Shown one piece after another: positions 5,840 through 22,868 of a stretch of DNA of 32,606 nucleotides. A program made the position numbers and the translations under genes. Source of the DNA: a virus. The notes beneath the pieces were generated by a model, which was not told the origin of the DNA, ran no database searches, and worked only from the letters and a program-made list of their open reading frames with translations. The stretch lies in IMG/VR virus record IMGVR_UViG_3300018080_000418, positions 1 to 32,606 of that record; one strand, 5' to 3'. The stretch's first letter is position 1, and each line of letters opens with the position of its first letter.

Positions 5840-7840
5840 ATGTTGGAAAACAAGGAGCTAGTATCAAAATTGGTAAGGATAGCCTGTAAACAAATTGATG
5901 CTTGCGAAACATTTAAACAACCTCGCTATAAGGATTTTAAAAAGATTGAGGATATTTATTTAAACAAAAATCCTAAACAGCTTAAAAATAGGTTTAATTT
6001 GCCATTACCTATTCTTTCTGGTTTTGTGGATACTCTTAAAAGTAAGATTGATGATGCTCCTATTATTAATTATAAACCTAGTGAAGAGGCTGATTATAAG
6101 GCTGCTAAAAAGGTGCAGGCTGTTTGGGATAGAGAAAAGAGCGATGATTTAGGTATGTGGGAGTTTATTGATAGGCAAGTTAAGACTTTAGCTATTTTCC
6201 AAGGCAGAGGAACATATAAAATATATACAGATAATATTAATGGTTTTAAGAGCCATTTAGAGTTTGTTGATATGTATGATTTTATTTTTGAGCCTCAAGG
6301 TGGCGTTAAATTAGATAATCATATATTTACTGGGCAAAGTAATATCTTTAAAACTAAATATGAATTAATGCAAGGAATGAAAGATGGATATTATGACAGA
6401 GCTAGTGTTAGGAATTTAGTTTTGACTTATAGCGAAGATGCTAAGATGACAAAAGAGGTTAAAACTACTAATAATGATAAATATAATAGATTCAGAGCTT
6501 TAGGCTTAGACCCGGTTACAAATAATTATGTTGGGGATGTTGTAGTGAATTTAAATGAACACATTATGCGATATAATGGTGTTAACTATTACTTGTTATT
6601 TGATAAGGCTACTTTAAATTGTATAAGGTGCGAAAAATTAGTTGATATGATTGGTGATGATAGGACTCCTTATGTTAGTTGGGCTACTCATGAAGACCCT
6701 GGAAATTTTATGAGTAAGGCGGCTGTTGATGATATTTATCCTATTGCTGATGGAATGAAAACTATATTTAATCAAGCAATGGATAATATACAAAAGAGAA
6801 ATTGGGGGCAGAGAGCTTATGACAGAACTATGTTCCCTAACCCTAAAGAACTTGAGTGGAAACCTGATGGCTTAGTTAGTGTTAATACTCAAGGGAAGGC
6901 ACTCAGCTCTGGTGTTTATACTTTTGAAACTCCTGATAATACTCAAGTTACTGTAAATATGATTGAGTGGTTAGATAATTTATTAGGCAACAAATCTGGT
7001 ATTACTGCAAGCGCACAAGGTGCCAGTGATAAGGATACTAAGGTTGGTGTATATTACGGAGATATGCAACAGGTTGCCGATAGATTGGGGTTATATAACA
7101 AATCATACAAAGAGGCTTGGGCTCAATTAGGCAAAAGGTTTGTTGGTGGTTGTAAGGATAATTTAACAGAGCCTTATGCTATTAAAATAATTGGTGATAA
7201 TGGAGTTGAATGGGATGAGTTAAAGAATAATGAAATTACAGAATTTGATATTGATGTTAGCGGTGGTGGTGTTGAAATACAACTAAATGAGATAAAAAGA
7301 GTTAAGCAGGCAGAAGCTATATCAAGTATTATTAAAAACCCAGAGTTATTTATGAAAATTAACCCTAATTGGATTATTGAGAAAATATTGAGTGGAGCTG
7401 ATTATGATGAAGAGGAAATCAAGAGAGCTGTTGATAACCAAAACCAGGGAAATCAGGAGTTAATGAGTGAAGCGGCTGAAAGTATTCAGGAAATATTAAA
7501 GGGCAAAATGCCTGAATTAAACAGAGGAGCCACCACTGGTTTTGTGCAAAAGATTAAAGACTTTGCTATTGATAAATTAGATAATGAAAAAGATATTGAA
7601 AAATATGAGATGATGATGAACTATGCTATGGCTCATTTACCAATAGTCCAGGAAAATATGAAAAAAAGAGCTATTGCAATGAGAGTTGCCAGAGCTGAAC
7701 AAATGAACGCAGTACCTCAAATGGCTGGAGGGCTTGGGCAGATTAACGCTAGTGAAATGCCTGAAGCTATTCCTCAAGGCACTGAAGGTGGCACTGCTCA
7801 AAGGAGCCAAATGGCTACTAAAAATAACATGCCTATATGA
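5840..7840 (+). CDS. Portal protein
   Basis: 666 residues starting one base after the previous stop. Size, position after the terminase, and a central region with WATHEDPG, a helix around QAMDNIQKRNWGQRAYDR and NKSGITASAQGASDKDTKVG fit the portal (head-tail connector) of short-tailed phages. Twelve copies form the channel at one capsid vertex through which DNA enters and leaves. The C-terminal third is helical and ends in a Gln/Met/Gly-rich tail, as in long podovirus portals. The stop overlaps the next start (ATGA, 7837-7840). Confidence 0.88.
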   Translation: MLENKELVSKLVRIACKQIDACETFKQPRYKDFKKIEDIYLNKNPKQLKNRFNLPLPILSGFVDTLKSKIDDAPIINYKPSEEADYKAAKKVQAVWDREKSDDLGMWEFIDRQVKTLAIFQGRGTYKIYTDNINGFKSHLEFVDMYDFIFEPQGGVKLDNHIFTGQSNIFKTKYELMQGMKDGYYDRASVRNLVLTYSEDAKMTKEVKTTNNDKYNRFRALGLDPVTNNYVGDVVVNLNEHIMRYNGVNYYLLFDKATLNCIRCEKLVDMIGDDRTPYVSWATHEDPGNFMSKAAVDDIYPIADGMKTIFNQAMDNIQKRNWGQRAYDRTMFPNPKELEWKPDGLVSVNTQGKALSSGVYTFETPDNTQVTVNMIEWLDNLLGNKSGITASAQGASDKDTKVGVYYGDMQQVADRLGLYNKSYKEAWAQLGKRFVGGCKDNLTEPYAIKIIGDNGVEWDELKNNEITEFDIDVSGGGVEIQLNEIKRVKQAEAISSIIKNPELFMKINPNWIIEKILSGADYDEEEIKRAVDNQNQGNQELMSEAAESIQEILKGKMPELNRGATTGFVQKIKDFAIDKLDNEKDIEKYEMMMNYAMAHLPIVQENMKKRAIAMRVARAEQMNAVPQMAGGLGQINASEMPEAIPQGTEGGTAQRSQMATKNNMPI

Positions 7841-9830: not shown

Positions 9831-11060
9831 ATGGCTAATAGCTTAAGTGCTTCATTCCCGGAATATTGGAGTCGAAGGATGCAGAGGCAGTACTATAAGT
9901 CTAAAGTTTTTAAAATGCTTGCCAAAATGGAAGAGCAAAAACTGCTTAAAAACGGAGACAAAGTACATAGACCTTATCGTTCTGATTTGACTTACAATAA
10001 CATGGGTTCTGAAGGTAGTTATACACGTCAAGATGTTACTGACACTGACGAAAGTTTAACTATTGATGTTAAACCTGAAACTTCTTTCTACGTGCAAGAA
10101 GTGGATGAAATCCAGTCTAATTATAAAACCACAAACGAGTATGCTGATGACGCTGCTGACGTAATTGGCGACAAAATTGATGGTGATATATTGGGCGAAT
10201 ATGACCAAAAGTATTCAGGCAACCAAGTAGCTAACTATGAGTTGACTGCTTCTGGTACTGCTGGTGATGGTATTGGTTTTACTGCTAGTACCTCAAACAT
10301 TTGGAAGGTATTTAGTATTGCCAACCAAAAACTTACAGCTTTGAATATTCCTTTACAGAATAGATGGGCTGTTATTTCACCAGAGTTTTATAGAACTCTT
10401 TGGGACTTCTTACAAGGTAAGGATACTAATTTAGGTGATACTGTTGGTACTAATGGGAAAATTGGTACTTATGCAGGAATGGAGTTATATCTAAGTAATA
10501 ACCTAGGTTGGAGTGCTAGATTAGAATTTGGTACTAACCCAACTAACACTGATACGGTTACTATTAATGGAGTTACATTTACTTTTTTGGCTACTTTAGG
10601 AACTACTGCTGGTAATGTACATATTTGTTCTGACGCTGCTAATTCTTTAACCAACTTTGTTACTTTCTTGAACACTCCTGGTACTTCTATTGCAGAAGAT
10701 ACTAATGCTGGTGCAGTTGCTCTAAGTGCTGCTGACCAAGTTAAGATGAAAGGAATTGTTGCAACTGACGGAACTACTTACATGACTTTGAAAGCTGAAG
10801 GTAAGTCTTATGTTGCTGTTAGTGAGACATTAACTGCTGCTGCTGATACCTGGACTACAACTAAGCAAATCCAACACCAATTATTCGGTCAAGGTAAACC
10901 TACTGATTTAGTTATCCAAAAATATCCTAATCTAAGAATTAAGGATAGAGATGGGTATATCGGTAAGGACTTTGTTACATGGACTCTATATGGTTTAAAA
11001 ACCTTCCGAGAAGGTACTAAAAAACTTGTGGATGTGCAAACTAGATCGGATCAATATTAG
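9831..11060 (+). CDS. Major capsid protein
   Basis: 409 residues following the scaffold gene. The N-terminal half (SFPEYWSRRMQRQYYKSKVFKMLAK, then HRPYRSDLTYNNMG, DVIGDKIDGDILGEYD) and the end (TDLVIQKYPNLRIKDRDGYIGKDFVTWTLYGL..., written in part) look like an HK97-fold capsid protein. Between about residues 225 and 350 lies a Thr/Gly/Ala-rich insert (DTVTINGVTFTF, then alternating short strands) that splits the capsid fold; such beta-rich inserts usually decorate the outer surface. It ends in TAG, while most neighbours end in TAA. It should be the most abundant structural protein. Confidence 0.88.
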   Translation: MANSLSASFPEYWSRRMQRQYYKSKVFKMLAKMEEQKLLKNGDKVHRPYRSDLTYNNMGSEGSYTRQDVTDTDESLTIDVKPETSFYVQEVDEIQSNYKTTNEYADDAADVIGDKIDGDILGEYDQKYSGNQVANYELTASGTAGDGIGFTASTSNIWKVFSIANQKLTALNIPLQNRWAVISPEFYRTLWDFLQGKDTNLGDTVGTNGKIGTYAGMELYLSNNLGWSARLEFGTNPTNTDTVTINGVTFTFLATLGTTAGNVHICSDAANSLTNFVTFLNTPGTSIAEDTNAGAVALSAADQVKMKGIVATDGTTYMTLKAEGKSYVAVSETLTAAADTWTTTKQIQHQLFGQGKPTDLVIQKYPNLRIKDRDGYIGKDFVTWTLYGLKTFREGTKKLVDVQTRSDQY

Positions 11061-11101: not shown

Positions 11102-11133
11102 ACAATTAGTTAATTATTAAAGACTAATTGTAT
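11100..11133 (+). promoter_or_regulatory. 11-bp hairpin covering the HNH start codon
   Basis: ATACAATTAGT (11100-11110) pairs perfectly with ACTAATTGTAT (11123-11133) around a 12-nt loop. The 3' arm includes the first two bases of the ATG at 11132. Read-through mRNA from the capsid gene would hide the start codon. Transcripts begun at the promoter just upstream lack most of the 5' arm. Confidence 0.72.
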
Positions 11134-11608
11134 GAAAAAAAAATGTGTCGTTTGTGACAAATTGTTCACAAAAAATCCTAATGTTTCTAAAAAACAATGG
11201 GAAAAATCTAAATATTGTAGCATTCAATGCTGTAATAGTGAGAAAGTAGGGTCTAAGCCACCCAAAACAGCTTTTAAAAAGGGTGATAAGCCCTGGAATA
11301 AGGGCAATCATGTAAAGTTAAATAATGCTCTTGATAAGTGGAGAGAGGCTGGGGGTGGAACAGGTGAAAAAAATCCTAGATGGAAAGGTGAAAAAGCTAA
11401 GTATTCTGCTATTCATATGTGGGTAAAACACCATAAAGGCAAGCCAGAGATATGCTTCAAATGTGGTAAAAAACATGATGGTAAAAAAGGCAGTGTTCAT
11501 TGGGCTAATATAGACCATAAGTATAAGAGAAACTTAGATGATTATATTGCTTTGTGTCCAACTTGTCACAAACGACACGACCTAGACAATTGTCTAGTTA
11601 AACATTAA
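11132..11608 (+). CDS. HNH homing endonuclease
   Basis: 158 residues. An N-terminal zinc ribbon (CVVCDKLF near residues 5-12, KYCSIQCC near 31) is followed by a NUMOD-like AFKKGDKPWNKG motif. The C-terminal HNH nuclease has CFKCGKKH, the catalytic HWANIDH stretch and CPTCHKRHD, with zinc Cys pairs around it. Such free-standing phage enzymes nick or cut a cognate site and spread by gene conversion; this one sits right after the capsid gene, a common insertion point. A promoter and a start-codon hairpin directly upstream suggest its translation is limited in late transcripts. Confidence 0.88.
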   Translation: MKKKCVVCDKLFTKNPNVSKKQWEKSKYCSIQCCNSEKVGSKPPKTAFKKGDKPWNKGNHVKLNNALDKWREAGGGTGEKNPRWKGEKAKYSAIHMWVKHHKGKPEICFKCGKKHDGKKGSVHWANIDHKYKRNLDDYIALCPTCHKRHDLDNCLVKH

Positions 11609-11615
11609 AAAACTT

Positions 11616-12347
11616 ATGAATAAAGTAAATAAAAAGTTCATATCTTTAATGGTTGTTTTAAGCCTAGTATTCTCTTTAGGCATATTTGCAGTAGTTAATG
11701 CAATGATGTTTGAGGGTACTCCTGATGAAATGAAAGAAATGCTTAGCTGTGATTGTGAGGAAATGGTTGGCGGACAATTTCATACTAGATTAGAGGATTT
11801 TTCTGAAGGTATTTCAGTGGATGGTACAGTTGTAATTGATGGCGATGGGAACATTGATGCTCCTATCACATCAACTACAGGTACTTTCTCAAGCACATTA
11901 AGTGTAACTGGCGATACAACACTGTCTAGCGCTTTGGCTGTTAGTGGGGAAACTTCTGTTGAAGGCTTTACTGATGGTGCAGGTGCATTGCAAGTTGCTA
12001 CTAGTTCAACTGATACTGGTTATTTAACACAAGCTCAGCTACTAGCTGATAACTATATTGAAATCATGGTTAACACAGGTGCAACTAAGACAATCACTTT
12101 GCCAGCTACAACAACATTGACAACATTGATTCCTAATGAAGGCGACCATAGAAATTGGATAATCCATAATGCTACATCTAGTACTATGGCTTTAACAATC
12201 GCCGCTGGAACAGGCATTGACCTTATTGGTGTAACAACTAATGACGATGTTATCGATGCAACAGAGTATTCAGAATTAGAATGTTGGAGACAACCAGGTG
12301 GTGGAGACGTTACTTGCAGAATTTCAGAATTATTACACGTAGATTAA
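11616..12347 (+). CDS. Exported fibre-like protein with Sec signal peptide
   Basis: 243 residues. There is a textbook signal peptide (basic start, hydrophobic core, cleavage after VNA at residue 29), then a short Cys-bearing helix (EMLSCDCEEM). Repeats follow (STLSVTGDTTLSSALAVSG) of the kind found in tail fibres and in secreted Patescibacteria proteins. The C-terminal beta domain contains TITLPATTTLT and NWIIHNATSSTMALTI and ends with two Cys. The mature protein would act outside the cell or at the cell surface. It is first in a run of exported proteins, and its start after the signal resembles that of the next gene. Role unknown: adhesin, surface conversion, or virion fibre assembled outside the cytoplasm. 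Confidence 0.75.
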   Translation: MNKVNKKFISLMVVLSLVFSLGIFAVVNAMMFEGTPDEMKEMLSCDCEEMVGGQFHTRLEDFSEGISVDGTVVIDGDGNIDAPITSTTGTFSSTLSVTGDTTLSSALAVSGETSVEGFTDGAGALQVATSSTDTGYLTQAQLLADNYIEIMVNTGATKTITLPATTTLTTLIPNEGDHRNWIIHNATSSTMALTIAAGTGIDLIGVTTNDDVIDATEYSELECWRQPGGGDVTCRISELLHVD

Positions 12348-12357
12348 AGATATTTAT

Positions 12358-12381
12358 AGCTCATTATTAATTTAATGGGCT
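12358..12381 (+). other. Intergenic hairpin without T-run
   Basis: AGCTCATTA (12358-12366), loop TTAATT, TAATGGGCT (12373-12381): 9 bp with one G-U pair. It follows a stop codon by about 10 bases, like the one at 11069. Probably an mRNA-stabilising or processing element; too weak for termination. Confidence 0.5.
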
Positions 12382-12411
12382 AGATAATATTATTAATTTA
12401 ATTATAAAAGT

Positions 12412-12834
12412 ATGGAATCTCTAAAAAAATTATTTATTATAGTAGTGGCGCTCCTATGTGTTGTCGGTAGTGTTCATGCTATAAACATGGAGTTAACTCC
12501 AGAAGAGGCTCAACAGTTTGTTAATTGTGAGGAAAAATTATCAGGAATGGATATTAATCTAATCGAGAATATGACAACTGCTAGTTCTACTGCTGGAAGT
12601 TCAAGCACGGAATTAGTTGCTGCTAATGCGGCTAGAAAATATCTAGCTATTGTTAATGATTCAGATGAAACAGTTTATATTAGTATCGGTGAAACTGCTG
12701 TCGTCGGAAAAGGCATTAGATTAAATGCTAATGGCGGTTCTTTTGAAATGGATAATAGTAATTTAAGTTTTAAAGCTGTGAATGGTATTTGCTCTAGTGG
12801 CGATAAAAATGTTACTTATCAAGAGGGTTATTAA
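12412..12834 (+). CDS. Exported small beta protein, phage decoration-like domain
   Basis: 140 residues. The signal peptide MESLKKLFIIVVALLCVVGSVHA exceeds 20 letters only if its tail is counted; its core IIVVALLCVVGSVHA ends in a cleavage site at residue 23. The mature part starts INMELTPEEAQQFVNC, matching the FEGTPDEMKEMLSC start of the preceding protein. The C-terminal ~90 residues (ELVAANAARKYLAIVNDSDE, then VYISIGETAVVGKGIRLNANGG and on) are a small beta domain common in phage head-decoration or fibre-associated proteins. Here it is attached to a Sec signal, which is unusual. Confidence 0.72.
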   Translation: MESLKKLFIIVVALLCVVGSVHAINMELTPEEAQQFVNCEEKLSGMDINLIENMTTASSTAGSSSTELVAANAARKYLAIVNDSDETVYISIGETAVVGKGIRLNANGGSFEMDNSNLSFKAVNGICSSGDKNVTYQEGY

Positions 12835-12848
12835 ACTAATTTAAACAT

Positions 12849-13793
12849 ATGAAATTAAAATTTAAACAATTTTTAATTGTACTATTGGTTATAGGGCTAT
12901 TAAGTGGTGGATTTGCGCATGCTGAAATAAGGAATGTGTTATCTTCTTTTTTGCAATTATCCGATACACCAACCTCAATAACTGCTAACCAATGTGTTAA
13001 GGGTAATAGTGGCGGCACTGCTTTAGAGTTTGGTGCATGTGGCACTGTTACTGGCGATATAACAGTACAAAGTTTAACGGCTACATCTTCTTTGGTTAGT
13101 CAAGGCACTCTGTCAGTAGATGGTGCTAGCACTTTGACTGGTAATGTTACAGCTTATGGAACTTATACAGGATATAGTGTAGTTGCAACTTCAAGTCTTT
13201 CATCTCAAGGAACTTTAGCGGTGACCGGTAATAGCACTTTAACTGGAACTTTAACTGTTAATAGTGCCTCTACATTTAATCAACCTGCAACAGCAGGAGA
13301 TTTAATAGCTACTTCTAGTCTAGATATTCCATCTGGTGCAGCTCCTACAGTAGATGCTGAAGGTGAAATAGCTATTGATACTACAGAAAATCAGTTTGTG
13401 GCTTATGGAGGCGCTAAAAGAGTAATAGACGAAGATGGTATTAGAAGTTTTTGCGTGCCAATAGCAAGTAGCACAGATATAGTGTCAGGTGATTATCTAG
13501 AATTATTAGAATTTCCTTATGCTTCTGTAACAGTGTTCTATCAATCATGTATAGCTCAAGATGGTACTAGCCAAGTTGTTAATTTAGCCGATACTAGTGG
13601 TACAAATAACATGACGTCTATTACTTGTGCTACAACTAAGGCTACTAGCACACCATCAAGTAATAATACTTTTACAGGTGGAGCTAGTGTGGCTGGTTCA
13701 GCTCCTGAAAATGTAAGGATAGAATTTGGCACTAATACTGGCAATGTAAGACGAATTAGTTATTGTGCTTATTATAGAATTAACGCTCAATAA
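12849..13793 (+). CDS. Exported repeat-containing fibre-like protein
   Basis: 314 residues. The signal peptide ends GGFAHA at residue 25. A shaft of imperfect repeats of the form ATSSLxxQGTLxVxGxSTLTG (about residues 75-170) gives way to a C-terminal domain with several Cys (SFCVPIASS, FYQSCIAQDG, SITCATTKA, ISYCAYY), likely disulfide-bonded after export. The ATSS repeats recall secreted Patescibacteria proteins. It has the layout of a surface fibre or adhesin. It lies 15 bases after the preceding gene and belongs to the same transcript. Confidence 0.72.
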   Translation: MKLKFKQFLIVLLVIGLLSGGFAHAEIRNVLSSFLQLSDTPTSITANQCVKGNSGGTALEFGACGTVTGDITVQSLTATSSLVSQGTLSVDGASTLTGNVTAYGTYTGYSVVATSSLSSQGTLAVTGNSTLTGTLTVNSASTFNQPATAGDLIATSSLDIPSGAAPTVDAEGEIAIDTTENQFVAYGGAKRVIDEDGIRSFCVPIASSTDIVSGDYLELLEFPYASVTVFYQSCIAQDGTSQVVNLADTSGTNNMTSITCATTKATSTPSSNNTFTGGASVAGSAPENVRIEFGTNTGNVRRISYCAYYRINAQ

Positions 13794-13795
13794 AT

Positions 13796-13975
13796 ATGAA
13801 TATACCTTGGTGGCAATTAATGTGGATAAGATTTATTAATTACGACAATATAAAGGAAATAAAGAATGATTGGGTTTGCGGAGATATAATAGTTTATTTG
13901 AAAAATGGTGGCATGAAATATTATGAGCATATGGGCTCACCTTATAGGAATAACTTAAGGAAAGATAATTTTTAA
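13796..13975 (+). CDS. 59-residue protein, aromatic N-terminus
   Basis: It starts one base after the previous TAA (aaATATGa context) and reads MNIPWWQLMWIRFINYDNIK..., a Trp-rich amphipathic start, then a Gly/Tyr-rich tail. It could lie at the membrane. No family recognised. Confidence 0.6.
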   Translation: MNIPWWQLMWIRFINYDNIKEIKNDWVCGDIIVYLKNGGMKYYEHMGSPYRNNLRKDNF

Positions 13976-13979
13976 AAAT

Positions 13980-14120
13980 ATGATTAAAAAACTATTTTGC
14001 AAACACGAGTATAATACTATAAGCGGAGGTCGTTTGTGCGAAACAGGTGACGAAATTGATATTAGCGTTAATATATGTGGCAAGTGTGGCAAAGAAAAAA
14101 ACAATTATTACATGTATTAA
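13980..14120 (+). CDS. 46-residue zinc-ribbon-like protein
   Basis: The N-terminal LFCKHEYN and C-terminal ICGKCGKEK give two Cys/His metal pairs about 28 residues apart, a pattern of tiny phage zinc-ribbon proteins. Four bases separate it from the preceding gene. Its role is unknown; it could be a nucleic-acid or protein adaptor. Confidence 0.65.
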   Translation: MIKKLFCKHEYNTISGGRLCETGDEIDISVNICGKCGKEKNNYYMY

Positions 14121-14132
14121 TAAACAAAAAAT

Positions 14133-14510
14133 ATGAAAAATATTAAACATTTTTGGAAAGAAATATTAATAACTACAGGTCTTACAGTTATGTTTGGAGG
14201 TGGAATGATGATGGGGGGAGAGTCTTTTCTCGGTGGGGAGGCTGAAGATATAACACATATACAAGATACTGTGGCTACATCTCAAGCTACTTATTTTGCT
14301 GAGAATGGGAAGTACGAACATACTGCTTCTAGTACTTATAACTCTTTAGATTATTACTGTTATGAATATATGAACGCTATTAGCCAACCTGGTTATCAAT
14401 TATTTATAGAAAAAGGTAGTGGCACTAGTACTGAAATCATGTCTACAGGTTATGGGCCAGAAGCAACTAGTAGAACATGGGAATGGAGACTTAAATATCA
14501 AGACGAATAA
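14133..14510 (+). CDS. Pilin-like membrane protein
   Basis: 125 residues. A basic start and one hydrophobic segment (about residues 11-28, ending in a Gly/Met-rich stretch) precede an acidic helix (DITHIQDTVATSQATYFAENGKYEH). The Q-A-T-Y-F...NGKY pattern is typical of the helix-to-head junction of type IV pilins and pseudopilins, and the C-terminal part is a small beta domain. A classical prepilin peptidase site (Gly then Phe-Thr) is not present, so it may be anchored rather than polymerised. It lies within the exported-protein run and may join those proteins at the host surface. Homology to true pilins is uncertain. Confidence 0.55.
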   Translation: MKNIKHFWKEILITTGLTVMFGGGMMMGGESFLGGEAEDITHIQDTVATSQATYFAENGKYEHTASSTYNSLDYYCYEYMNAISQPGYQLFIEKGSGTSTEIMSTGYGPEATSRTWEWRLKYQDE

Positions 14511-14511
14511 T

Positions 14512-14661
14512 ATGGATGATTTATATTTCGAACTCAAGGAGTATTTTGCTAAGAAAAATGATTATCTTAAGAACGAACAAATAGATTTAGATGATATGGT
14601 TAATGAAGTCATGCCTTTATTAGAGGACTTAGTTAAACATAAAATTATAAAAATATGTTAA
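14512..14661 (+). CDS. 49-residue acidic helical protein
   Basis: The ATG at 14512 follows the previous stop by one base; a longer frame from 14419 overlaps the pilin-like gene and is rejected. The acidic helices (MDDLYFELKEYFAKKNDYLK...) end KIIKIC. The stop overlaps the next ATG (ATGTTAA), so translation is coupled to the LamG protein. Confidence 0.6.
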   Translation: MDDLYFELKEYFAKKNDYLKNEQIDLDDMVNEVMPLLEDLVKHKIIKIC

Positions 14662-16190
14662 AAAAATTAATATTAATAATAGGATTAGCTGTTTTATTCC
14701 CGCTATGTGATGCTAATGCTTTGAATACTAATACTACAAGTTTAACTAGAGCGGACAGTGAGCATTGGAGTATTGCTGATGCTTCTCAAACAGGCTTAGA
14801 TTTAGCTGGAGATTATAGTATAGAAGCTTGGATAAAGTTAGATCAACTTCCATCTACACCTAATGATGGTATGGGAATAGTTGATAAAACGGTAGCTGGA
14901 GATGCTGGTTATAGATTTCAACTTGCTAATACTAATAAGTTAATGCTTACTATATGGGATGGCTCAGGTGGTTATGACAGAATAACAACAGATTCAGAAA
15001 TATCACAAACCGCTACATGGATTCATGTTGCAGCCACCCAGGATGTTTCGGCTGGCTCTGGTGGAATGATTATTTATGTTAATGGTTCTGCGACCACTAC
15101 AAGTTCTGCATCTGATACAGCTACAGGTTTAAGTGGCAACGCAGGAGCATTAGGTGTAGGAGCATTAACTGTTACTGGTGGTGCTCAAGATTTTTTCGAT
15201 GGTGATATAGATGACGTAAGAATATGGGACGACATAAGAACAGCAGAAGAAATATCTGCTAACTACAATTGCAGACTGCAAGGAGATGAAGCCGGTTTAG
15301 TAGCTTACTGGAGATTTGATAATAATGGAAATGATGACACAAGTAATAGCAACAACCTAACCAATAACAATAGTGTTACTTTCCAAAGTGCATCTCTACC
15401 TTTTACGGATGATTGTAGTGGTGTGAATGGTAATAGTTACACTACAAGTTTGGAAGCCGATGATAGTGAGTATTGGAGCATAGCTGACGCTAGTCAAACA
15501 GGCCTAGATGGTACAGGAGATTTCGCTACAGGCTTTTGGGTTTATTATAATACATTGCCTCAATATAATGATGAAGGAGGTATAGTCGGTTTAGTGGGAA
15601 AGTTCGATGGTGATAATGATGCTGATAGTAGAAATGGATGGAGATTAAGGTCTGTTCAAGGGAATTTAAGGGTTGAATACTCAGACCAAATAGCGAATGG
15701 AACAGTTTTTATATATAACAATGTATTTACTGCTACAAGTACTTGGTACCATATTTATACTTCTGTAGATGTATCTGCTCAAGATATTAGGACAGTAATA
15801 AATGGTTCTGGTGTAAATCCTAGTAGTATTAGTAAAGTTAGCACTGCTATTGGAGCTAATTCTGCTCCATTTTCCATAGGTTGCTTAAATGCGGATACTA
15901 CGCCTGACAGATTTGTTGATGGATATATTGATGACGTGAGAGTTTATAATACTTTTTTAGCAACAAGCACAATGCAAGCTGACTATAATTGTAGATTAGA
16001 TGGTGATGAAGCTAATTTAGTTGGTTACTGGACTTTCGATAATAATGGTAATGGACAAACAAGTAATGCTAATAATCTAACTAATAATAATTCAGCTACT
16101 TTTCAATCAGCTAGTTTGCCTTATACAGATATTTGCTCAGCTGCTGGTGTTGTAGCAGGTTATTTCAATAGTTGTGTAATTAATTTATAA
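14655..16190 (+). CDS. Exported protein with two LamG/concanavalin-like domains
   Basis: 511 residues. The signal peptide ends CDANA at residue 22. Two tandem jelly-roll domains of the LamG-3 type follow (about 30-240 and 262-495), each with the signature FDGDIDDVRIW or VDGYIDDVRVY near its end, then a conserved tail (NCRLxGDEAxLVxYWxFDNNGN ... FQSASLPxTDxC). The tails are nearly identical in both repeats, so the gene arose by an internal duplication. Paired Cys suit oxidation outside the cytoplasm. Such domains bind glycans or proteins, so a surface adhesin, or a fibre attached outside, is the likely role. It overlaps the preceding gene by 7 bases. Confidence 0.82.
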   Translation: MLKKLILIIGLAVLFPLCDANALNTNTTSLTRADSEHWSIADASQTGLDLAGDYSIEAWIKLDQLPSTPNDGMGIVDKTVAGDAGYRFQLANTNKLMLTIWDGSGGYDRITTDSEISQTATWIHVAATQDVSAGSGGMIIYVNGSATTTSSASDTATGLSGNAGALGVGALTVTGGAQDFFDGDIDDVRIWDDIRTAEEISANYNCRLQGDEAGLVAYWRFDNNGNDDTSNSNNLTNNNSVTFQSASLPFTDDCSGVNGNSYTTSLEADDSEYWSIADASQTGLDGTGDFATGFWVYYNTLPQYNDEGGIVGLVGKFDGDNDADSRNGWRLRSVQGNLRVEYSDQIANGTVFIYNNVFTATSTWYHIYTSVDVSAQDIRTVINGSGVNPSSISKVSTAIGANSAPFSIGCLNADTTPDRFVDGYIDDVRVYNTFLATSTMQADYNCRLDGDEANLVGYWTFDNNGNGQTSNANNLTNNNSATFQSASLPYTDICSAAGVVAGYFNSCVINL

Positions 16191-16222
16191 ATATGTTATA
16201 AAAACTTAAACAAATTATAGTG

Positions 16223-16378
16223 ATGACTGTGATAGTCGGAGTCGCTATTGGCTCAATATCTTATGCGGTTGTTTTAAAGCCTGATACTTATTATGCCTTT
16301 ATATTAGATAACAATGAAACTTCAACACAAGGTGGTCAAATAAGATTAGAATTTTATGAGCATACCGATAAAGACTAA
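16223..16378 (+). CDS. Small membrane protein; longer frame from 16193 has TAA at codon 3
   Basis: The intact frame from ATG 16223 (GTG 16220 also possible) gives 51 residues: a hydrophobic segment TVIVGVAIGSISYAVVL, then a polar tail ending YEHTDKD. Two bases after the LamG stop stands ATG TTA TAA (16193-16201), in the same frame and with the usual start context, so an N-terminus of about ten residues (ML*KLKQIIV) seems to have been cut off by a single stop. It is probably a type I or II membrane protein at the start of the lysis region. Confidence 0.5.
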   Translation: MTVIVGVAIGSISYAVVLKPDTYYAFILDNNETSTQGGQIRLEFYEHTDKD

Positions 16379-16393
16379 TTAATAAATAAATAT

Positions 16394-16594
16394 ATGGATA
16401 AAAATTATCTACAATCTACAACAATTCAATCAGCTATTGTAATGATGTTGGTTTTAATCAGTCAAGTTGCAAAAGTTGATTTAGATGAAGGAATTATTAC
16501 AGAATTAGTGCAAGCTGTTATTGGTTTAATATCTGTATGTGGAGTTATCTATGGCAGAATTAAAGCAACACATAAACTAGGATGGAAAAAGTAA
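16394..16594 (+). CDS. Holin-like protein
   Basis: 66 residues with two hydrophobic segments (QSAIVMMLVLISQV, about 12-26, and VQAVIGLISVCGVIYG, about 40-55), a short acidic link, and a basic C-terminus (RIKATHKLGWKK). Size, topology and the position ahead of a candidate endolysin fit a small phage holin, which forms the membrane hole that times lysis. It overlaps the next gene by 13 bases. Confidence 0.75.
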   Translation: MDKNYLQSTTIQSAIVMMLVLISQVAKVDLDEGIITELVQAVIGLISVCGVIYGRIKATHKLGWKK

Positions 16595-16833
16595 ACAAAA
16601 TTACAGCACAGACATTGGTGCCTATCGGATTATTATTTACTATATGCGGAGTTGTTTGGCTGGCGTCAAGATTAGATTCGAGGGTTACTATGAACACTGG
16701 TAGAGTTGAGGCTGTTGAAAAGATGCAAAAAGAATCTCCATCGAGAACAGAGTTTAATATTTTAGTTGACGATGTAAAGGAAATTAAACAAGATACAAAA
16801 ACAGTAATTGAGCAACTGATGCGACATAATTAG
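16582..16833 (+). CDS. Membrane-anchored coiled-coil protein of the lysis region
   Basis: 83 residues: one membrane segment (LVPIGLLFTICGVVWLAS, about 12-29), then a charged helix (EAVEKMQKESP, DDVKEIKQDTKTVIEQLM). This is the plan of an inner-membrane spanin subunit or a holin partner/antiholin. It overlaps the holin-like gene by 13 bases, so the two are translated together. Confidence 0.7.
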   Translation: MEKVNKITAQTLVPIGLLFTICGVVWLASRLDSRVTMNTGRVEAVEKMQKESPSRTEFNILVDDVKEIKQDTKTVIEQLMRHN

Positions 16834-16878
16834 TTATACTATCTAGTTGTCAATAAGGACTAGACGGTTAACAATTTA

Positions 16879-16929
16879 GGCGGTTAGGAAAAAAAGACAG
16901 TATATTTTTACAACTTTTTGCCAACCGCC
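16879..16929 (+). other. Long imperfect hairpin in the lysis leader
   Basis: GGCGGTT (16879-16885) pairs perfectly with AACCGCC (16923-16929). Inside, GG/CC and AAAAAG/CTTTTT pair further across small bulges, leaving a 17-nt loop. There is no T-run after it. It stands 35 bases before a gene with a strong ribosome site, so it may control expression there. Nothing else is evident in 16834-16963. Confidence 0.6.
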
Positions 16930-16963
16930 ATGACCTTTTAACAATTAATATAAAGGAGAGGGG

Positions 16964-17110
16964 ATGAATAAATATATTTATTTGCTTAGCATGAAGTTGT
17001 TCAGATGTATGAGTTTTATAGCAAATACCGCTGTTATATCAATAAGGATTTTATTCATTTTTTGGCTAGCATTAGCACTTTTTATAATACTAAAAGTTGA
17101 TAAGGGGTAA
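16964..17110 (+). CDS. 48-residue hydrophobic membrane protein
   Basis: AAAGGAGAGGGG directly before the ATG is one of the strongest ribosome sites in the window. The product has a membrane segment over the C-terminal half (VISIRILFIFWLALALFIIL) and possibly a weaker one at the N-terminus. Placed in the lysis region, it may be an antiholin or second holin. Confidence 0.65.
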   Translation: MNKYIYLLSMKLFRCMSFIANTAVISIRILFIFWLALALFIILKVDKG

Positions 17111-17142
17111 TTATGGAAAAAGAAAAATGGGGGGGATAATCC

Positions 17143-17328
17143 ATGAGCATTAAAGAGGCTATCAGGAATAGATTAATGGAAGTACATAAGCAATGTGGTA
17201 TTAATTATCAAGAGTATTCAAATGATTGGCAAGAGTATGTCGAAGATATGACATGGAAATCTATGTGTGCGGTGGTTGCGGCAAAAGGTGTTAGTTTAAA
17301 TGAAGCTATGCAAATTATATTACCATAA
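17143..17328 (+). CDS. 61-residue soluble protein in the lysis region
   Basis: The ATG is preceded by a G-rich stretch (GGGGGGAT) acting as ribosome site. The helical sequence contains two Cys and Trp residues (NDWQEYVEDMTWKSMCAVV). No family recognised. It is followed by a 7-bp hairpin. Confidence 0.6.
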   Translation: MSIKEAIRNRLMEVHKQCGINYQEYSNDWQEYVEDMTWKSMCAVVAAKGVSLNEAMQIILP

Positions 17329-17335
17329 CCTCTAC

Positions 17336-17357
17336 GGGCTAATAAAAAAGTTAGCCC
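17336..17357 (+). other. Hairpin after the 61-residue gene
   Basis: GGGCTAA (17336-17342) and TTAGCCC (17351-17357) form a perfect 7-bp stem with an A-rich loop. No T-run follows, so it is a weak terminator at best; probably an mRNA stability element like those at 11069 and 12358. Confidence 0.55.
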
Positions 17358-17381
17358 AATTCATTAATTAAGACATTATAT

Positions 17382-17486
17382 ATGAGTAAAAAATATGATG
17401 ATGACTATTTTATTATCACAACTGCATTATTCGGATTCGTTATCGGTTTTATTGCCGGGATTATTTTGGCTCTAAAATATGTATAA
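17382..17486 (+). CDS. 34-residue single-span membrane peptide
   Basis: MSKKYDDDYF, then a hydrophobic span with small-residue motifs (GFVIGFIAGIILAL). The start has the tatATGa context. Such tiny membrane peptides are common in phage lysis cassettes, but there is no direct evidence of function. Confidence 0.5.
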   Translation: MSKKYDDDYFIITTALFGFVIGFIAGIILALKYV

Positions 17487-17513
17487 TTTTATTTATTTAT
17501 AATTTTTAAATTT

Positions 17514-18590
17514 ATGAATTTCAAAAATAAAGTATTATTTAAAATCAATGAAAAACTTCCGTGGGTTTACACCCAGTTGGTTAAGGTTGGCCTGCAGTGG
17601 AACGATGGCGTTAATGAGAAAAGTGAAAATGAAACTTTTGACAAGGATTGGAAAAGAAAAGAGGGCGAACTTGTCGGCGGAGAATTTGAGCCTAAAGATT
17701 ATCAATCAGACGGGCAATGGTTGGGCTTTGTATATGACGAAGAGGAGCAAAAACAAAATGGAGTTGAAACTATGAGCTGTGCTTCGCAGGCTCCAGTTAA
17801 TGGCATAGAAGTTTTAGAGTTTAGGAAATGGAATAAAAAACCGCAATATTCAAAAAGATTTGTTGCTATGGGTAGTGGCACTACTTACCGTGGAAATACC
17901 CCTACTGCAACTATGGATTTTATAAGAACAAAAGGAATGTGCAGTGAAGGTGCTTGGGGTTGGGGTAATGTTAAAAGTTGGAAAGATTTTTATAAAAAAC
18001 CACCTCAACAGGTGTGGGATTGGGCTGCAGATTGGGTAAGAAGATATGTATTTAGTTATGAAAGATTGGTTTATTCTTATACTCATGTATTGCTTAAGAA
18101 TTTAAAAAGGAGTCCTTTGCCTGTGGCTGTTGATGCTTGGCACAAAGATAGAAATGGTAAATATTATCGGGTTAGCTCTAGGTCTAACCACTTTTGTTTA
18201 CTGGTTGGCTACAAGCTAGATGACTATTGGTTAGTATTGGATAGTTACCCCCCTTTTATTAAAAAATTAAGATGGGATTATAGATTTGATTACACGAGGG
18301 TGATGTATTTAAGACATAGAGATGAAAAATTTAACACAGAGGCGTTAGTACAGAAAAAAAGAGATGGGGTCGAATATTTTTTACATGTTGATGATAGAGG
18401 TAAATTTTATAAAATTACAGACGACTTTGAATTAGTACACATTGAAAAAGAAGAGTTGGAAAAAGAACTAAAGGAAAGATTGGGCAAGGATTTTAAAATG
18501 AGAGATGACTTTATTAGATATTTAGCTGATGTGGTTAAGATATTACAACCAATAAATGCAAAAGACTTTAATAAATTAATTAAAAAATAA
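17514..18590 (+). CDS. Papain-like cysteine peptidase, candidate endolysin
   Basis: 358 residues. The order of a papain-fold (C1-like) peptidase is visible: nucleophile in MSCASQAPVNG (Cys89), histidine in SNHFCLLVGYK (His226), and a third polar residue in LVLDSYPP (Asp243, where papain has Asn). The C-terminal ~100 residues add a small domain and a charged helix. It follows the holin-like and small membrane genes, and no other lysin is seen nearby, so a role in degrading cell-wall peptide cross-links is the best guess; no signal peptide is present, which fits holin-dependent release. Alternatives are a virion maturation protease or a peptidase acting on host surface proteins. Confidence 0.7.
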   Translation: MNFKNKVLFKINEKLPWVYTQLVKVGLQWNDGVNEKSENETFDKDWKRKEGELVGGEFEPKDYQSDGQWLGFVYDEEEQKQNGVETMSCASQAPVNGIEVLEFRKWNKKPQYSKRFVAMGSGTTYRGNTPTATMDFIRTKGMCSEGAWGWGNVKSWKDFYKKPPQQVWDWAADWVRRYVFSYERLVYSYTHVLLKNLKRSPLPVAVDAWHKDRNGKYYRVSSRSNHFCLLVGYKLDDYWLVLDSYPPFIKKLRWDYRFDYTRVMYLRHRDEKFNTEALVQKKRDGVEYFLHVDDRGKFYKITDDFELVHIEKEELEKELKERLGKDFKMRDDFIRYLADVVKILQPINAKDFNKLIKK

Positions 18591-18591
18591 T

Positions 18592-19248
18592 ATGAATGGA
18601 GCTGCGTTAAAAACATTTTTCTTAGGCTTAATAGATGAAGAGGATATCGATAGTACGTTGTTTTACCAACTTTTAAATGTTGCTAAAAATAGAAGAGAAG
18701 CCGAAAGGGATTATATGTATCTAAGAACTAAGGATACATCTCAAACTTCTAGTCCGGGTGATTCTTATACTACAATGAAAGATTTACCAAGTGATTTTAG
18801 AAAAATGCTAAGGGTTTTTGTTGGCGATACAGAGCATTATGGAGTCGGTTTTGAAGACCAAATTTTATATGAAGACGGTGCTCAAAAATATTATTTAGAT
18901 ATGGCTAATGACCAATTTGCTATAATTGGACAACCTGCATCTACTGAAACAATAACTCAATTCTATGTCAAAACTACTGATGATATCACTAGCACAACTT
19001 CTCCTCTTTTTCCTAGTCGTTTTCATCCTATTTTGGCATATGACGTTGCTGGATATTATACTATGGGCATTGATGCTGATAATATTTATGCTCGTATGAG
19101 TCCAGAACATAAAATGGCGGCAGAATTATTGCTTGATGCTATGATTAAATGGGATGATGATTTAGCTTTAGCTAGCCAAAATTATTCTGCTACTCCTTTT
19201 TTGCATGAAGGTGAAAACAGAAAAGATTCAATTAATATGTATGATTAA
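18592..19248 (+). CDS. Head-tail adaptor (P22 gp4-like tail accessory factor, putative)
   Basis: 218 residues with the pattern of podovirus head-tail connectors: N-terminal helices (LIDEEDIDSTLFYQLLNVAKN), KDLPSDFRKMLRVFV, a central beta part (FAIIGQPASTETITQFYVK) and a C-terminal helical block (PSRFHPILAYDVAGYYTMG, then RMSPEHKMAAELLLDAM). It would bind beneath the portal and close the channel after packaging. It starts one base after the peptidase stop and is followed five bases later by the nozzle-like protein, the expected partner. Confidence 0.78.
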   Translation: MNGAALKTFFLGLIDEEDIDSTLFYQLLNVAKNRREAERDYMYLRTKDTSQTSSPGDSYTTMKDLPSDFRKMLRVFVGDTEHYGVGFEDQILYEDGAQKYYLDMANDQFAIIGQPASTETITQFYVKTTDDITSTTSPLFPSRFHPILAYDVAGYYTMGIDADNIYARMSPEHKMAAELLLDAMIKWDDDLALASQNYSATPFLHEGENRKDSINMYD

Positions 19249-19253
19249 TAATT

Positions 19254-21104
19254 ATGTTAGAAAAAATATTTGAAAATTTTAACAGAGGATTAATTACCAG
19301 AGTAGAGGCTAAGAGTATTGGCGATGGCTCTGCTAGTGATATTCTTAATTGGTTGCCTTTGGGTGATAAGATTGAATTACGAAGAGGTATGCTTTTGATT
19401 GGAAGTGAACAGACTGGTTCTGGAAAAGTTACTGGCTTGCATACCACTAGAACAGTAAACAATGTTGAGATAACTTATAGGACTAGAGGGAAAAAAATAG
19501 AATATTATGACACTACTACAGAGGATTGGATTGAGGTTGGAACTAACCAGCTTGGGGATGATGCTGATGGCGAAGATGTGAGTTTTACTGATTATACTAC
19601 TAATCATGGTTATCAAATGTGGTTGTGTTCTCCTAATAGCTCTTTGTATAAGATAATGACTGCAAATCCTGGAAGTATTACAGATATGTATAACAGTACT
19701 AAAAATTATAAGGGGAAAATACAAATAATTTTGAATAGGATGTTTTTGTGGAATAGAAATAAAGATAAGGCGGCGGTTTATGGTTCTCATATAGATGAAT
19801 TAAATAATACTACTGTTACTGCTGAAAATGTTGGCACTGGCGATGGAACTACTAAAACCTTTTCAGAGACTTTAGATTTTAAGGCTGGCGGTTCTAGACG
19901 TACTTGTTTTGGCATTACTGCCACAGATGGGACTGAAACTTTTACAGATAATTATGATGGCACTTTAACTGGCAGTCTAGGCGGTAGTGGTACAATTAAC
20001 TATACTACTGGGGCTATTAGTTTAACATTTAATACAGCTCCGGCTAATTTACAGGCAATTACTAGTGATTATCAATGGGAAGACTCAACTGATGGTGGCG
20101 TTGCTGATTTTAGTTTTAGTGCTACCAGATTAGCTGGCGAGGGTATTTTGTTCAGGCAAGATGTTGGGGGAAATATGCAAAACATATTCACTTATGCTGA
20201 TATTCAATATTGTATCCATCAATTTAAGACTTGGCGTTTAAATATAACAGTTGATGATACTGATGCTACCAATAGAGTGTATAGGGAGTTGGCTGGCATT
20301 CCTAATTGGAGAGCGGCTATTGCTACTGGCGATGGTGTATATTTTATTGATGATTCAGATATTAGCGACCCTAGATTTAGGGTTTTACAAGTTGAGGCTG
20401 GCGGAGAGTCTGTAATACCTGTAGACATTAGTGTCAATTTAGATTTAGGGGATTATAGATTTGACCAGGGAGCTGTTTGCGAGTTTAGCGATTATTTAAT
20501 ATTTGCTTGTCGAACAACTTCTAATACAATTAATGATAGGTTATTTGTGTATAATAAAGTTTGGAAAAATTACACTATATTAGATTATCGAGTTAATTGT
20601 TTTGCTGTGAATAATGGCGAGTTATGGGCTGGTGATAGTGGCACAGACAATGTATATAAATTATTTAGTGGCGTTGACGATGATGACTCAAATGTTGACA
20701 ACTTGTTTACAAGTGATTTAGGAAACCTTGATGCTGAAAGATTAAAAAAGGTTAAAAGATTAATTTTACAGGGTGAAATACAAGTTGACCAAAGTTATGA
20801 TGTTTACTTGAGTTTTGACAATAGCACTTTTATTAATGTTGGTACTGTTGATGGTGATGGTAGTTATGTAGATAAATCTAATCCTGTTACTGTTGGAACA
20901 AACACTGTTGGAACAAAAACAGTCGGTGGTGGAGATGTTTTGACTGCATATAATTATGAAAAAGAGATTAAAATAAGGACAGATAAATTTGAAAAAGTAA
21001 AGATTAAATTTGTTGCTACTAAATTGGGTTATGTAAGTATTAGTAAAATTAATTATAAAGATATACGTTTGAAGGAACAAAGAGTTGCTTCAAAATATCG
21101 TTAA
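19254..21104 (+). CDS. Tail nozzle / stabilisation protein (putative)
   Basis: 616 residues, mostly beta. The start (NFNRGLITRVEAKSIGDGSA, ILNWLPLGDKIELRRGM) is the typical opening of phage propeller-type tail proteins that remove empty-tail gaps and extend the tube below the adaptor, like P22 gp10. Residues ~183-285 are an inserted Gly/Thr-rich domain (VGTGDGTTKTFSETLDF ... GTINYTTGAISLTF) that recurs in many phage tail proteins. Blades with YLIFACRTTSNTINDRLFVY and WAGDSGTDNVYKL follow. Gene order adaptor, nozzle, fibre supports the call. Confidence 0.72.
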   Translation: MLEKIFENFNRGLITRVEAKSIGDGSASDILNWLPLGDKIELRRGMLLIGSEQTGSGKVTGLHTTRTVNNVEITYRTRGKKIEYYDTTTEDWIEVGTNQLGDDADGEDVSFTDYTTNHGYQMWLCSPNSSLYKIMTANPGSITDMYNSTKNYKGKIQIILNRMFLWNRNKDKAAVYGSHIDELNNTTVTAENVGTGDGTTKTFSETLDFKAGGSRRTCFGITATDGTETFTDNYDGTLTGSLGGSGTINYTTGAISLTFNTAPANLQAITSDYQWEDSTDGGVADFSFSATRLAGEGILFRQDVGGNMQNIFTYADIQYCIHQFKTWRLNITVDDTDATNRVYRELAGIPNWRAAIATGDGVYFIDDSDISDPRFRVLQVEAGGESVIPVDISVNLDLGDYRFDQGAVCEFSDYLIFACRTTSNTINDRLFVYNKVWKNYTILDYRVNCFAVNNGELWAGDSGTDNVYKLFSGVDDDDSNVDNLFTSDLGNLDAERLKKVKRLILQGEIQVDQSYDVYLSFDNSTFINVGTVDGDGSYVDKSNPVTVGTNTVGTKTVGGGDVLTAYNYEKEIKIRTDKFEKVKIKFVATKLGYVSISKINYKDIRLKEQRVASKYR

Positions 21105-21113
21105 CTAAAAAAT

Positions 21114-22868
21114 ATGAAAAAAATCATTTCTTTATGCTTATTCCTATTAATTATTACAATGCCTGTGAGTGCTAGTTTTCTATATGAATATGGGAGTTTT
21201 GACGAAAGAGCTCAAATGGCTGTAGATTATGGGATAGTAAATAATATTTCAGAGTATATTGGCAGTTATGAGCAGAATATTAAATTATTAAATGCGCTTG
21301 ACCATGCTGGTGAAGCCAACGAAATGGTTGGCGGTGCTAGCGGTGAATCTGAATTACCATTATTAGTGGCTAACTTTGAAACTTCTCTTGCTTCTAAAAT
21401 AACGTCGGATGCTACGACTTTAACTTTAGTAAGTGCTACTACTGACGCAGGCAACTCATTATCTGGTTGGTATGGTTTAACTATTGATGTTGGTAATTCT
21501 AACCAAGAATATGTTATCGGAAATTGCAGTGGAGTTACTTGCTCTTCATTAATAAGAGGTATTTCAACAGACAATGGCGTATCAACTTCTACAGATTGGC
21601 AGTATTCTCATAGACGTGGTGCTGCGGTTCAGATGACAGACCACCCTAATTTAGTAATTATTACTAATATTTTAAATGGCATAGATGGAATACCTGATAT
21701 TTTATATTATGATGATTCAAATACGTTCACCTCTGCTAAACAGTTAATTGATAAAAATTATGCTGATAGTATAGCTAATCAGGGGGCGGCTACATCTTCT
21801 GACACAGTTGCTGGCATTGCTGAAAGAGCCACAGCGGCTGAACAAGCGGCTAATACTAATTATGGCACTGACAGGCCTCTTTATTTAGGTGCTAAATACG
21901 CTAGTAGTACTAGTGCTAATAATTATGCCATTATAGCAGATAGTAGCGGTGAGTTAGACCCTAGCTGGATAAGTGATAATAATTATACGTTTTCAGGTGA
22001 TAATAGTTTTACAGGCTCTACAACTATATCTGATTTAATATATGGTGGGACAAGTATAACTTCTAATGGTGCAGAATTGAACAAATTAGATGGAGCTTCT
22101 ACTACTGTTACATCTACAAACTTGAATACATTAACTGCTGGGACAGGCTCTAACGCTGATGATTTACACAAACACAATCCTATAGTTATGAATAGTAGAA
22201 TGATGGCACAGGGTTGGAGAATAATAAATATAGAGGGCGACCAACGTCAAGATATAGATGCTGCGGCTACGGAAGTATGGGATGGTACGGCGGTTTCAGG
22301 TGGCTCATTAAAATTTGATTATGATGTGTTGGGAGCAGTAGCTGATGACGAGGTTGGAGATGGTACTGCTTTAGGAGCTGATTGGCCGTCATATATAGAT
22401 GAAGATGGCAACGCACATGATTGGGGCAATGAAAGTATAATAGAATTTCAAGCGTTCCAAAGCAATGGCGGTGATAGCGATATATTCTTTGGGTTAGGTG
22501 GCAATGGAGCTGCTGATGTTACTAGCGGTGCAGTAGCGGCTGATGCTACATTAACTGATAGACATGCAGGCTTTTTCTTAGTAGACGGAACTACTTTATA
22601 CGCTTCCAATGCTGATAATGTTACACAAACAAAAACTGATGTTACTGGCTCATATGACTTAGATAAAAGGCATTCTTATAGAATATGGGTGCAAGGTGGA
22701 ACAAGAATTAGATTTTATATAGATAATACTTTAGTTGCCACACATACAACTAATTTGCCATCAAGTGATACACATAGCTTAATAAGATTCGGTGCGGAAT
22801 CACAGAATGTTGCTGCTACCACTAATTTATTTATTTATACACCTATTATATTTGCTCAAAAGGACTAA
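21114..22868 (+). CDS. Exported tail-fibre-like protein with Sec signal peptide
   Basis: 584 residues. The signal peptide MKKIISLCLFLLIITMPVSA ends at residue 20. An N-terminal helical domain follows (SFDERAQMAVDYGIVNNI). The central part has fibre-like segments (NSFTGSTTISDLIYGGTSI, then LDGASTTVTSTNLNTL, ADDLHKHN). The C-terminal ~200 residues form a jelly-roll-like receptor-binding or lectin domain (SIIEFQAFQSNGGDSDIFFG, HSYRIWVQGGTRIRFYIDNT). Its place after the adaptor and nozzle is that of a tail fibre, but a cleavable signal would send it through the membrane, which a cytoplasmically assembled fibre does not need. Either the particle gains it outside, or it is a surface decoy or adhesin. 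Confidence 0.75.
   Translation: MKKIISLCLFLLIITMPVSASFLYEYGSFDERAQMAVDYGIVNNISEYIGSYEQNIKLLNALDHAGEANEMVGGASGESELPLLVANFETSLASKITSDATTLTLVSATTDAGNSLSGWYGLTIDVGNSNQEYVIGNCSGVTCSSLIRGISTDNGVSTSTDWQYSHRRGAAVQMTDHPNLVIITNILNGIDGIPDILYYDDSNTFTSAKQLIDKNYADSIANQGAATSSDTVAGIAERATAAEQAANTNYGTDRPLYLGAKYASSTSANNYAIIADSSGELDPSWISDNNYTFSGDNSFTGSTTISDLIYGGTSITSNGAELNKLDGASTTVTSTNLNTLTAGTGSNADDLHKHNPIVMNSRMMAQGWRIINIEGDQRQDIDAAATEVWDGTAVSGGSLKFDYDVLGAVADDEVGDGTALGADWPSYIDEDGNAHDWGNESIIEFQAFQSNGGDSDIFFGLGGNGAADVTSGAVAADATLTDRHAGFFLVDGTTLYASNADNVTQTKTDVTGSYDLDKRHSYRIWVQGGTRIRFYIDNTLVATHTTNLPSSDTHSLIRFGAESQNVAATTNLFIYTPIIFAQKD

Follow-up and report, generated by a model that had tools for sequence, protein, structure and literature searches.

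Tailed phages are taken to assemble wholly in the cytoplasm, and their tail fibres are normally made without a signal. Virion proteins that are exported through Sec with signal peptides are known from the Inoviridae. However, the members of this family lack an HK97-type capsid and a terminase and their particles are extruded at the membrane, whereas the virus considered here has the packaging genes of a tailed phage. A search of an open-access library gave no description of Sec-exported, disulfide-bonded appendages for tailed phages. Phages of groundwater Patescibacteriota encode LamG/concanavalin-type proteins, possibly acting at surfaces (PMC12911398), to which one of the proteins described here (viz. 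the product of the gene at 14655) shows a likeness; the text searched makes no mention of signal peptides, gene context, leader modularity or cysteine parity. The observations presented below suggest that, in a group of uncultured tailed phages, some components of the virus may be produced, or may function, outside the infected cell.

The stretch of DNA analysed (referred to as the window) is the linear virus record IMGVR_UViG_3300018080_000418, of 32,606 bases, and it is a fragment of a tailed-phage genome. Its packaging and structural genes include those for a terminase, an SU10-like portal (49.2 bits, exceeding the Pfam gathering score of 30), the capsid protein at 9831 and a conserved tail protein at 19254, for which a sequence search of solved structures gave no match. 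The positions of these and other features are listed in Table 1. Elsewhere in the window, a 1023-residue virion-type protein (24722-27793) has an M23 peptidase domain at its N-terminus and a match to phrog_2579 ('ParB C-terminal domain', E 1e-20) at its C-terminus. HNH endonuclease genes are found at 11132-11608 and 29324-29833, the former lying between the capsid gene and the gene for SP1, at a position that is empty in the contig L002. A gene for a TET-associated glycosyltransferase (2844-3692; PF20691, E 8e-36), with a ParB-like gene immediately upstream, suggests that cytosine in the phage DNA may be glycosylated or hypermodified. At about 1525-2000 there is a remnant resembling a C-5 cytosine methylase with in-frame stops, an intact homologue of which (L123, 5623-6252; PF00145) is present in the virus of contig L015.

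Table 1. Positions of the features of the window that are considered in the text; a slash marks the predicted signal-peptide cleavage site or the end of the junction motif.
Feature	Position	Strand	Remarks
Portal, SU10-like	5840..7840	+	PF23899, E 4e-13
Major capsid protein	9831..11060	+	phrog_267; anchors the conserved gene order
SP1, exported fibre-like protein, 243 aa	11616..12347	+	signal peptide 1-29 (FAVVNA/MM); first leader-bearing gene past the capsid gene
Junction motif VGG in SP1	11766..11774	+	context CDCEEMVGG/QFHTR
SP2, exported single jelly-roll protein, 140 aa	12412..12834	+	signal peptide 1-23 (VGSVHA/IN), linker helix, domain 54-139
Junction motif LSG in SP2	12538..12546	+	LSG/MDINLIEN; lowest-confidence hinge of the model
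Exported fibre protein, 314 aa, T-S-S/ST-L repeats	12849..13793	+	signal peptide 1-25 (GGFAHA/EI); 6 mature Cys
Small membrane-anchored exported-type protein ('pilin-like')	14133..14510	+	LGG motif at 14229-14237
Exported protein, two LamG/concanavalin-like domains, 511 aa	14655..16190	+	signal peptide 1-22 (LCDANA/LN); 6 mature Cys
Two small holin-like membrane proteins	16394-16594, 16582-16833	+	assigned by position and topology only
Divergent protein in the slot held by a C1A papain-type peptidase in several relatives	17514..18590	+	not identified as C1A
Head-tail connector	18592-19248	+	relatives match SU10 adaptor PF24175
Conserved tail protein	19254-21104	+	conserved
T, exported protein of 584 aa, encoded next to the 19254 tail gene on its 3' side	21114..22868	+	signal peptide 1-20 (MPVSA/SF)
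Junction motif VGG in T	21327..21335	+	context GEANEMVGG/ASGESELPLLVANFETSL

The original prediction was that five products of the morphogenesis region are exported through Sec by signal peptides with A-x-A-type cleavage sites, and that they carry fibre repeats, LamG-like or jelly-roll domains and paired cysteines. All five open reading frames are present at the starts 11616, 12412, 12849, 14655 and 21114, and by inspection their N-termini show a basic n-region and an uncharged hydrophobic core followed by an A-x-A-like site. Four of the five proteins pass an in-house signal-peptide score at its threshold of 5.5, a value attained 0.02 times per window when the N-termini of all window genes are shuffled; the product of 14655 falls below it solely because an Asp precedes its A-N-A site. 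N-terminal hydrophobic segments are present in 8 of 13 genes at 11.1-22 kb versus 1 of 24 elsewhere (p = 2.5e-4). The description of the mature parts was likewise borne out: the protein at 14655 has two Laminin_G_3 domains (E 7e-36; 124 bits over two stretches, against a Pfam gathering score of 27.6), the jelly-roll of 12412 is seen in a confident structure model, fibre-like repeats are seen in 11616 and 12849, and in the order of their genes the five products have 4, 2, 6, 6 and 2 cysteines after the hydrophobic core. The small protein at 14133, which had been called pilin-like, does have an N-terminal membrane segment, but its sequence (KHFWKEILITTG) has neither a prepilin site G-F-x4-E before the hydrophobic helix nor a Pfam pilin match.

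In the model of 12412 a signal helix and a linker helix precede the jelly-roll (residues 54-139), the lowest confidence being at residues 45-47. The AlphaFold model of T, which is poor beyond the N-terminal domain, has the same layout at its N-terminus; after the signal peptide of this protein there is a helical linker, then a conserved domain from about residue 81 and a variable C-terminus. A conserved domain with a variable C-terminus is seen in T proteins both with and without a leader, and this pattern resembles that of receptor-binding proteins. Although sequence searches of solved structures with SP2 and T gave no match, a fold search with SP2 retrieved small Caudoviricetes proteins that have no leader (83-110 residues; TM, by target length, up to 0.81), including two proteins of Pseudomonas phage tf. 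Thus the mature parts (viz. jelly-roll, LamG, fibre repeats and T domain) look phage-type, the place of the fold matches in the virion being putative.

Leader-bearing fibre-like proteins are common to the window phage and dozens of its uncultured relatives. Conservation of the signals was surveyed among related IMG/VR contigs (given here L numbers), and the signal was found to be a trait of the clade: leaders of the same type are present in the same gene slots (viz. downstream of the major capsid gene and of the 19254 tail gene) in about 40 contigs. Wider scans with the capsid protein and a conserved downstream protein gathered more than 100 loci, many of them leader-bearing. The slots which recurrently bear a leader are those of SP1, SP2, a fibre, and T directly 3' of the tail gene. 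In the nearest relative, L002, whose capsid protein is 79% identical, four consecutive signal-bearing proteins are found past the capsid gene, and SP1 homologues with a leader are present in L002, L013, L015, L022, L032 and L136-L172. In a tree of capsid proteins from 79 phages (42 leader, 37 leaderless), the leader label needs 7 changes versus 26.4 when shuffled, and the window falls in a supported group of 33 phages, 31 of them leader-bearing; however, these proportions should not be interpreted as population frequencies, because the A6 scan favours leader-type phages.

The bearing of these leaders on export can be seen from the cysteines of the mature proteins, counted after the hydrophobic core and compared with those of leaderless proteins from the same phages. 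Among leader proteins with 1-8 mature cysteines the ratio of even to odd numbers is 109:10, versus 124:171 in the other proteins (p about 1e-22), a parity that forms a statistical basis for disulfides and in which homologous families are not fully independent. When one member is taken per homology cluster, the ratios are 20.4:5.2 for leader and 40.6:47.5 for leaderless proteins, and in the proteins of leaderless-clade phages the ratio is 111:178. One example of this difference is provided by the T domain, where the 25 leader members include 24 with exactly two cysteines, whose positions differ, and no member with an odd number, whereas one cysteine is present in 12 of the 24 leaderless members. 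A parity of this kind is unlike that expected of cytoplasmic proteins and speaks for genuine export by the leaders. The topology is predicted to be N-in/C-out in 84% of cases, and the basic n-region with acidic residues following it fits Sec topology. Judged from the sequences, the predicted export through Sec during infection is well supported, and it is supported that the exported mature domains would be disulfide-bonded in an oxidising compartment.

The leaderless homologues of these proteins begin near the place where the leader ends. This is seen for SP2 (L033, L045, L021, L032), T (L041, L063, L070, L077) and the fibre (L003 versus L015), in all of which the initiator Met of the leaderless form is close to the junction; the SP2 homologues at L033 13362 and L045 9954 start at the junction itself. 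Of two sister phages, L015 encodes the orthologous fibre with a leader and L003 without one, an in-frame stop being present 18 nt before the start in the latter; leaderless sisters such as L003 indicate that the fibre can do without export. The junction usually reads [LMVF]-G-[GAS] or a close variant and is common to families without mutual similarity; in the window it is EEMVGG in 11616, EKLSG in 12412, SFLGG in 14133 and NEMVGG in 21114. With one protein taken per cluster, the motif lies 20 or fewer residues from the helix in 14.1 of 45 clusters, versus 4.2 (s.d. 1.9) when shuffled, and its frequency drops from 0.32 to 0.05 with distance from the helix. It is not an internal start codon, as the codons for its hydrophobic position are not enriched for ATG, GTG or TTG, and hence it is a feature of the protein; nor is it a general host signal, as no enrichment was seen in Patescibacteria genome pieces. 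In homologous fibres, a classic A-x-A site takes the place of the G-G motif in several members, and in many relatives the leader is a plain hydrophobic helix without A-x-A. The junction may be a processing site, or perhaps a hinge with a membrane tether instead of a cut; in 12412 the likely Cys39-Cys127 pair, both cysteines of which are absent in L002, spans the junction and argues against a simple cut there. An identical stretch of 14 nt, GAAATGGTTGGCGG, is present at 11760-11773 and 21321-21334, where it encodes EMVGG in two unrelated genes, and it could reflect swapping of leaders by recombination.

A candidate for processing at the junction is the C1A papain-type peptidase (PF00112; 1.6e-10 in L149, 2.9e-7 in L017) that follows the holin-like gene in several relatives. 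Peptidases of this type, some next to holin-like genes, are encoded at L003 8474-9334, L015 15649-16539, L017 7563-8435, L025 14951-15847 and L149 14155-15135, and in the L015 virus, which has a separate Amidase_2, lysis may involve more than the C1A peptidase. C1A peptidases prefer a hydrophobic P2 residue, which would suit [LMVF]-G. However, among the 20 whole records searched C1A was absent in the majority, several of which are leader-bearing and 40-44 kb long, and L033 has a weak C1A match yet a leaderless SP2, so that a general role at the junction is not borne out; in the window, the protein at 17514 is not found by a C1A profile built without it, and the Cys-His-Asn motif and profile together do not identify it as C1A. 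Leaders of the double-glycine type, which are cut by C39, similarly have G-G, G-A or G-S at the end of a removable part. In contrast to them, the leaders of the window clade have a membrane helix before the motif and lack the LS-x2-EL-x2-I consensus; further, the junction context varies and a C39 transporter was not found in the window, and C39 too was set aside as a general processor. No single protease fits all of the junction cases, and the main claim does not depend on the C1A peptidase.

Peptidoglycan enzymes (M23 in the window and Amidase_2, PF01510, in the L015 virus) and the D-arm of the window tRNA-Met (CAT; 1205-1279, with an encoded CCA), which we take to be bacterial initiator-like, together indicate a bacterial host; L002 has a tRNA-Met at 644-716. 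The nearest relatives of the window tRNA are from Patescibacteria (91%) and Pseudomonadota (88%) and are not decisive. Patescibacteria are, from sequence, a plausible host group; Parcubacteria-type (Patescibacteria) bins contain leaderless relatives only, and the T domain is barely found in Patescibacteria. The sole contig of the leader clade in a genome bin, L089 (the same contig as L015), is in a Pacearchaeota bin of a species-representative genome. However, a Pacearchaeota host was rejected, as the virus encodes a peptidoglycan amidase (PF01510) and a match was seen in only 1 of 236 genomes of this phylum; the contig is probably misbinned.

The reading that we favour, with a probability of roughly 0.55, is that the appendage proteins would be secreted, acquire disulfide bonds once out of the cytoplasm and be added to the particle at lysis or later. 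SP1, SP2, the repeat fibre, the LamG protein and T would be made as preproteins and carried by Sec across the cytoplasmic membrane, and outside the cytoplasm their mature domains would gain disulfide bonds. The leader would be removed or left behind, by signal peptidase at A-x-A and possibly also by a second cut at [LMVF]-G-[GAS], or else the proteins would stay tethered to the membrane at that hinge. At lysis, heads and tails would escape from the cytoplasm and be met by the preformed appendages, which would attach to them; a part of the virion would thus be completed outside the cytoplasm. Attachment to particles is suggested by the gene slots, the leaderless homologues in related phages and the sister fibres of L003 and L015. 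If the joining occurs after lysis, then the compartment in which an appendage waits will matter little, and this would explain the toggling of the leader between sisters. For the whole clade, the broader proposal, viz. two-compartment virions in which a modular [LMVF]-G-[GAS] leader can route any appendage outward for completion after lysis, seems to us evenly poised between right and wrong.

The original prediction of a phage-encoded system outside the cytoplasm is supported by the clade-wide signals and the strong cysteine parity. Of the two forms proposed for it, decoration of particles after they leave the cell fits better than decoys or adhesins displayed on the infected cell, due to the homology and fold likeness to leaderless proteins of head-tail slots, the differing presence of the leader among orthologues and the lack of a C-terminal anchor. 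That the proteins are free adhesins or decoys, which coat or leave the infected cell and are never part of the particle, we consider the main competing view, less likely but to be taken seriously, together with the roles proposed for them (receptor blocking, superinfection exclusion, sparing of progeny from adsorption to debris, and altered adhesion of the cell to partners). Secretion is well supported, LamG and fibre domains are of adhesive types, a part in host adhesion has been proposed for the concanavalin-like genes of Patescibacteriota phages (PMC12911398), and the phage tail proteins PblA and PblB are active at the cell surface (PMC7600539). However, across a wide clade the genes occupy constant places in the head and tail region, related phages encode leaderless homologues of T and SP2 at comparable positions, and the variation of the leader among orthologous fibres would not be tolerated in a purely extracellular role. 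Further, a C-terminal wall or membrane anchor is missing among the leader proteins (LPxTG in 0 of 152, a hydrophobic tail in 2 of 152), so that cleaved forms would not be retained on the cell. As in tailed-phage appendages, the genes are positioned amid head-tail genes and their products are homologous to phage proteins in comparable slots.

Since the leaders are on virion-type proteins and in many relatives consist of a plain hydrophobic helix without A-x-A, they could also be interpreted as uncleaved hydrophobic plugs, which fix cytoplasmically assembled appendages into the capsid or tail. This is the least probable of the explanations considered, as it does not account for the strong difference in cysteine parity between leader and leaderless proteins, the Sec-type topology of a basic n-region with an acidic stretch after it, or the classic A-x-A leader ends of several fibres where others have the G-G motif. 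It is likewise quite improbable that these are moron-type genes aiding the surface life of the host (e.g. adhesion of an episymbiont to its partner), from which the phage gains through host fitness alone. Adhesive domains are present and Patescibacteria, in whose phages such genes have been proposed (PMC12911398), are a plausible host group, but the genes belong to the late morphogenesis block, no integrase was recognised in the window and the host assignment is putative.

If secretion followed by joining to the particle is the correct interpretation, then an extracytoplasmic stage is added to the assembly of tailed phages, raising the question of how fibres reach the particles, and lysates may influence adsorption, superinfection and host adhesion by new routes. 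In addition, cysteine parity and N-terminal signals together provide a practical test by which, in the annotation of uncultured viruses, exported phage proteins can be told from cytoplasmic ones. Of the described systems, PblA and PblB of the Streptococcus mitis prophage SM1 are alike in that they are tail components which also act outside the cell, binding surfaces (PMC7600539). However, their release needs the phage holin and lysin and is followed by binding to wall choline (PMC7600539), whereas the window proteins each have a Sec leader of their own; no choline-binding repeats were noted in the latter, and homology to PblA or PblB was not found by any search made. The head-tail module of SU10 (Kuravirus; PMC9509320) is shared in that the window has its portal family (PF23899) and relatives have its adaptor (PF24175), in a similar gene order. 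In comparison with SU10, the leaders on the appendage genes are a feature of the window clade.
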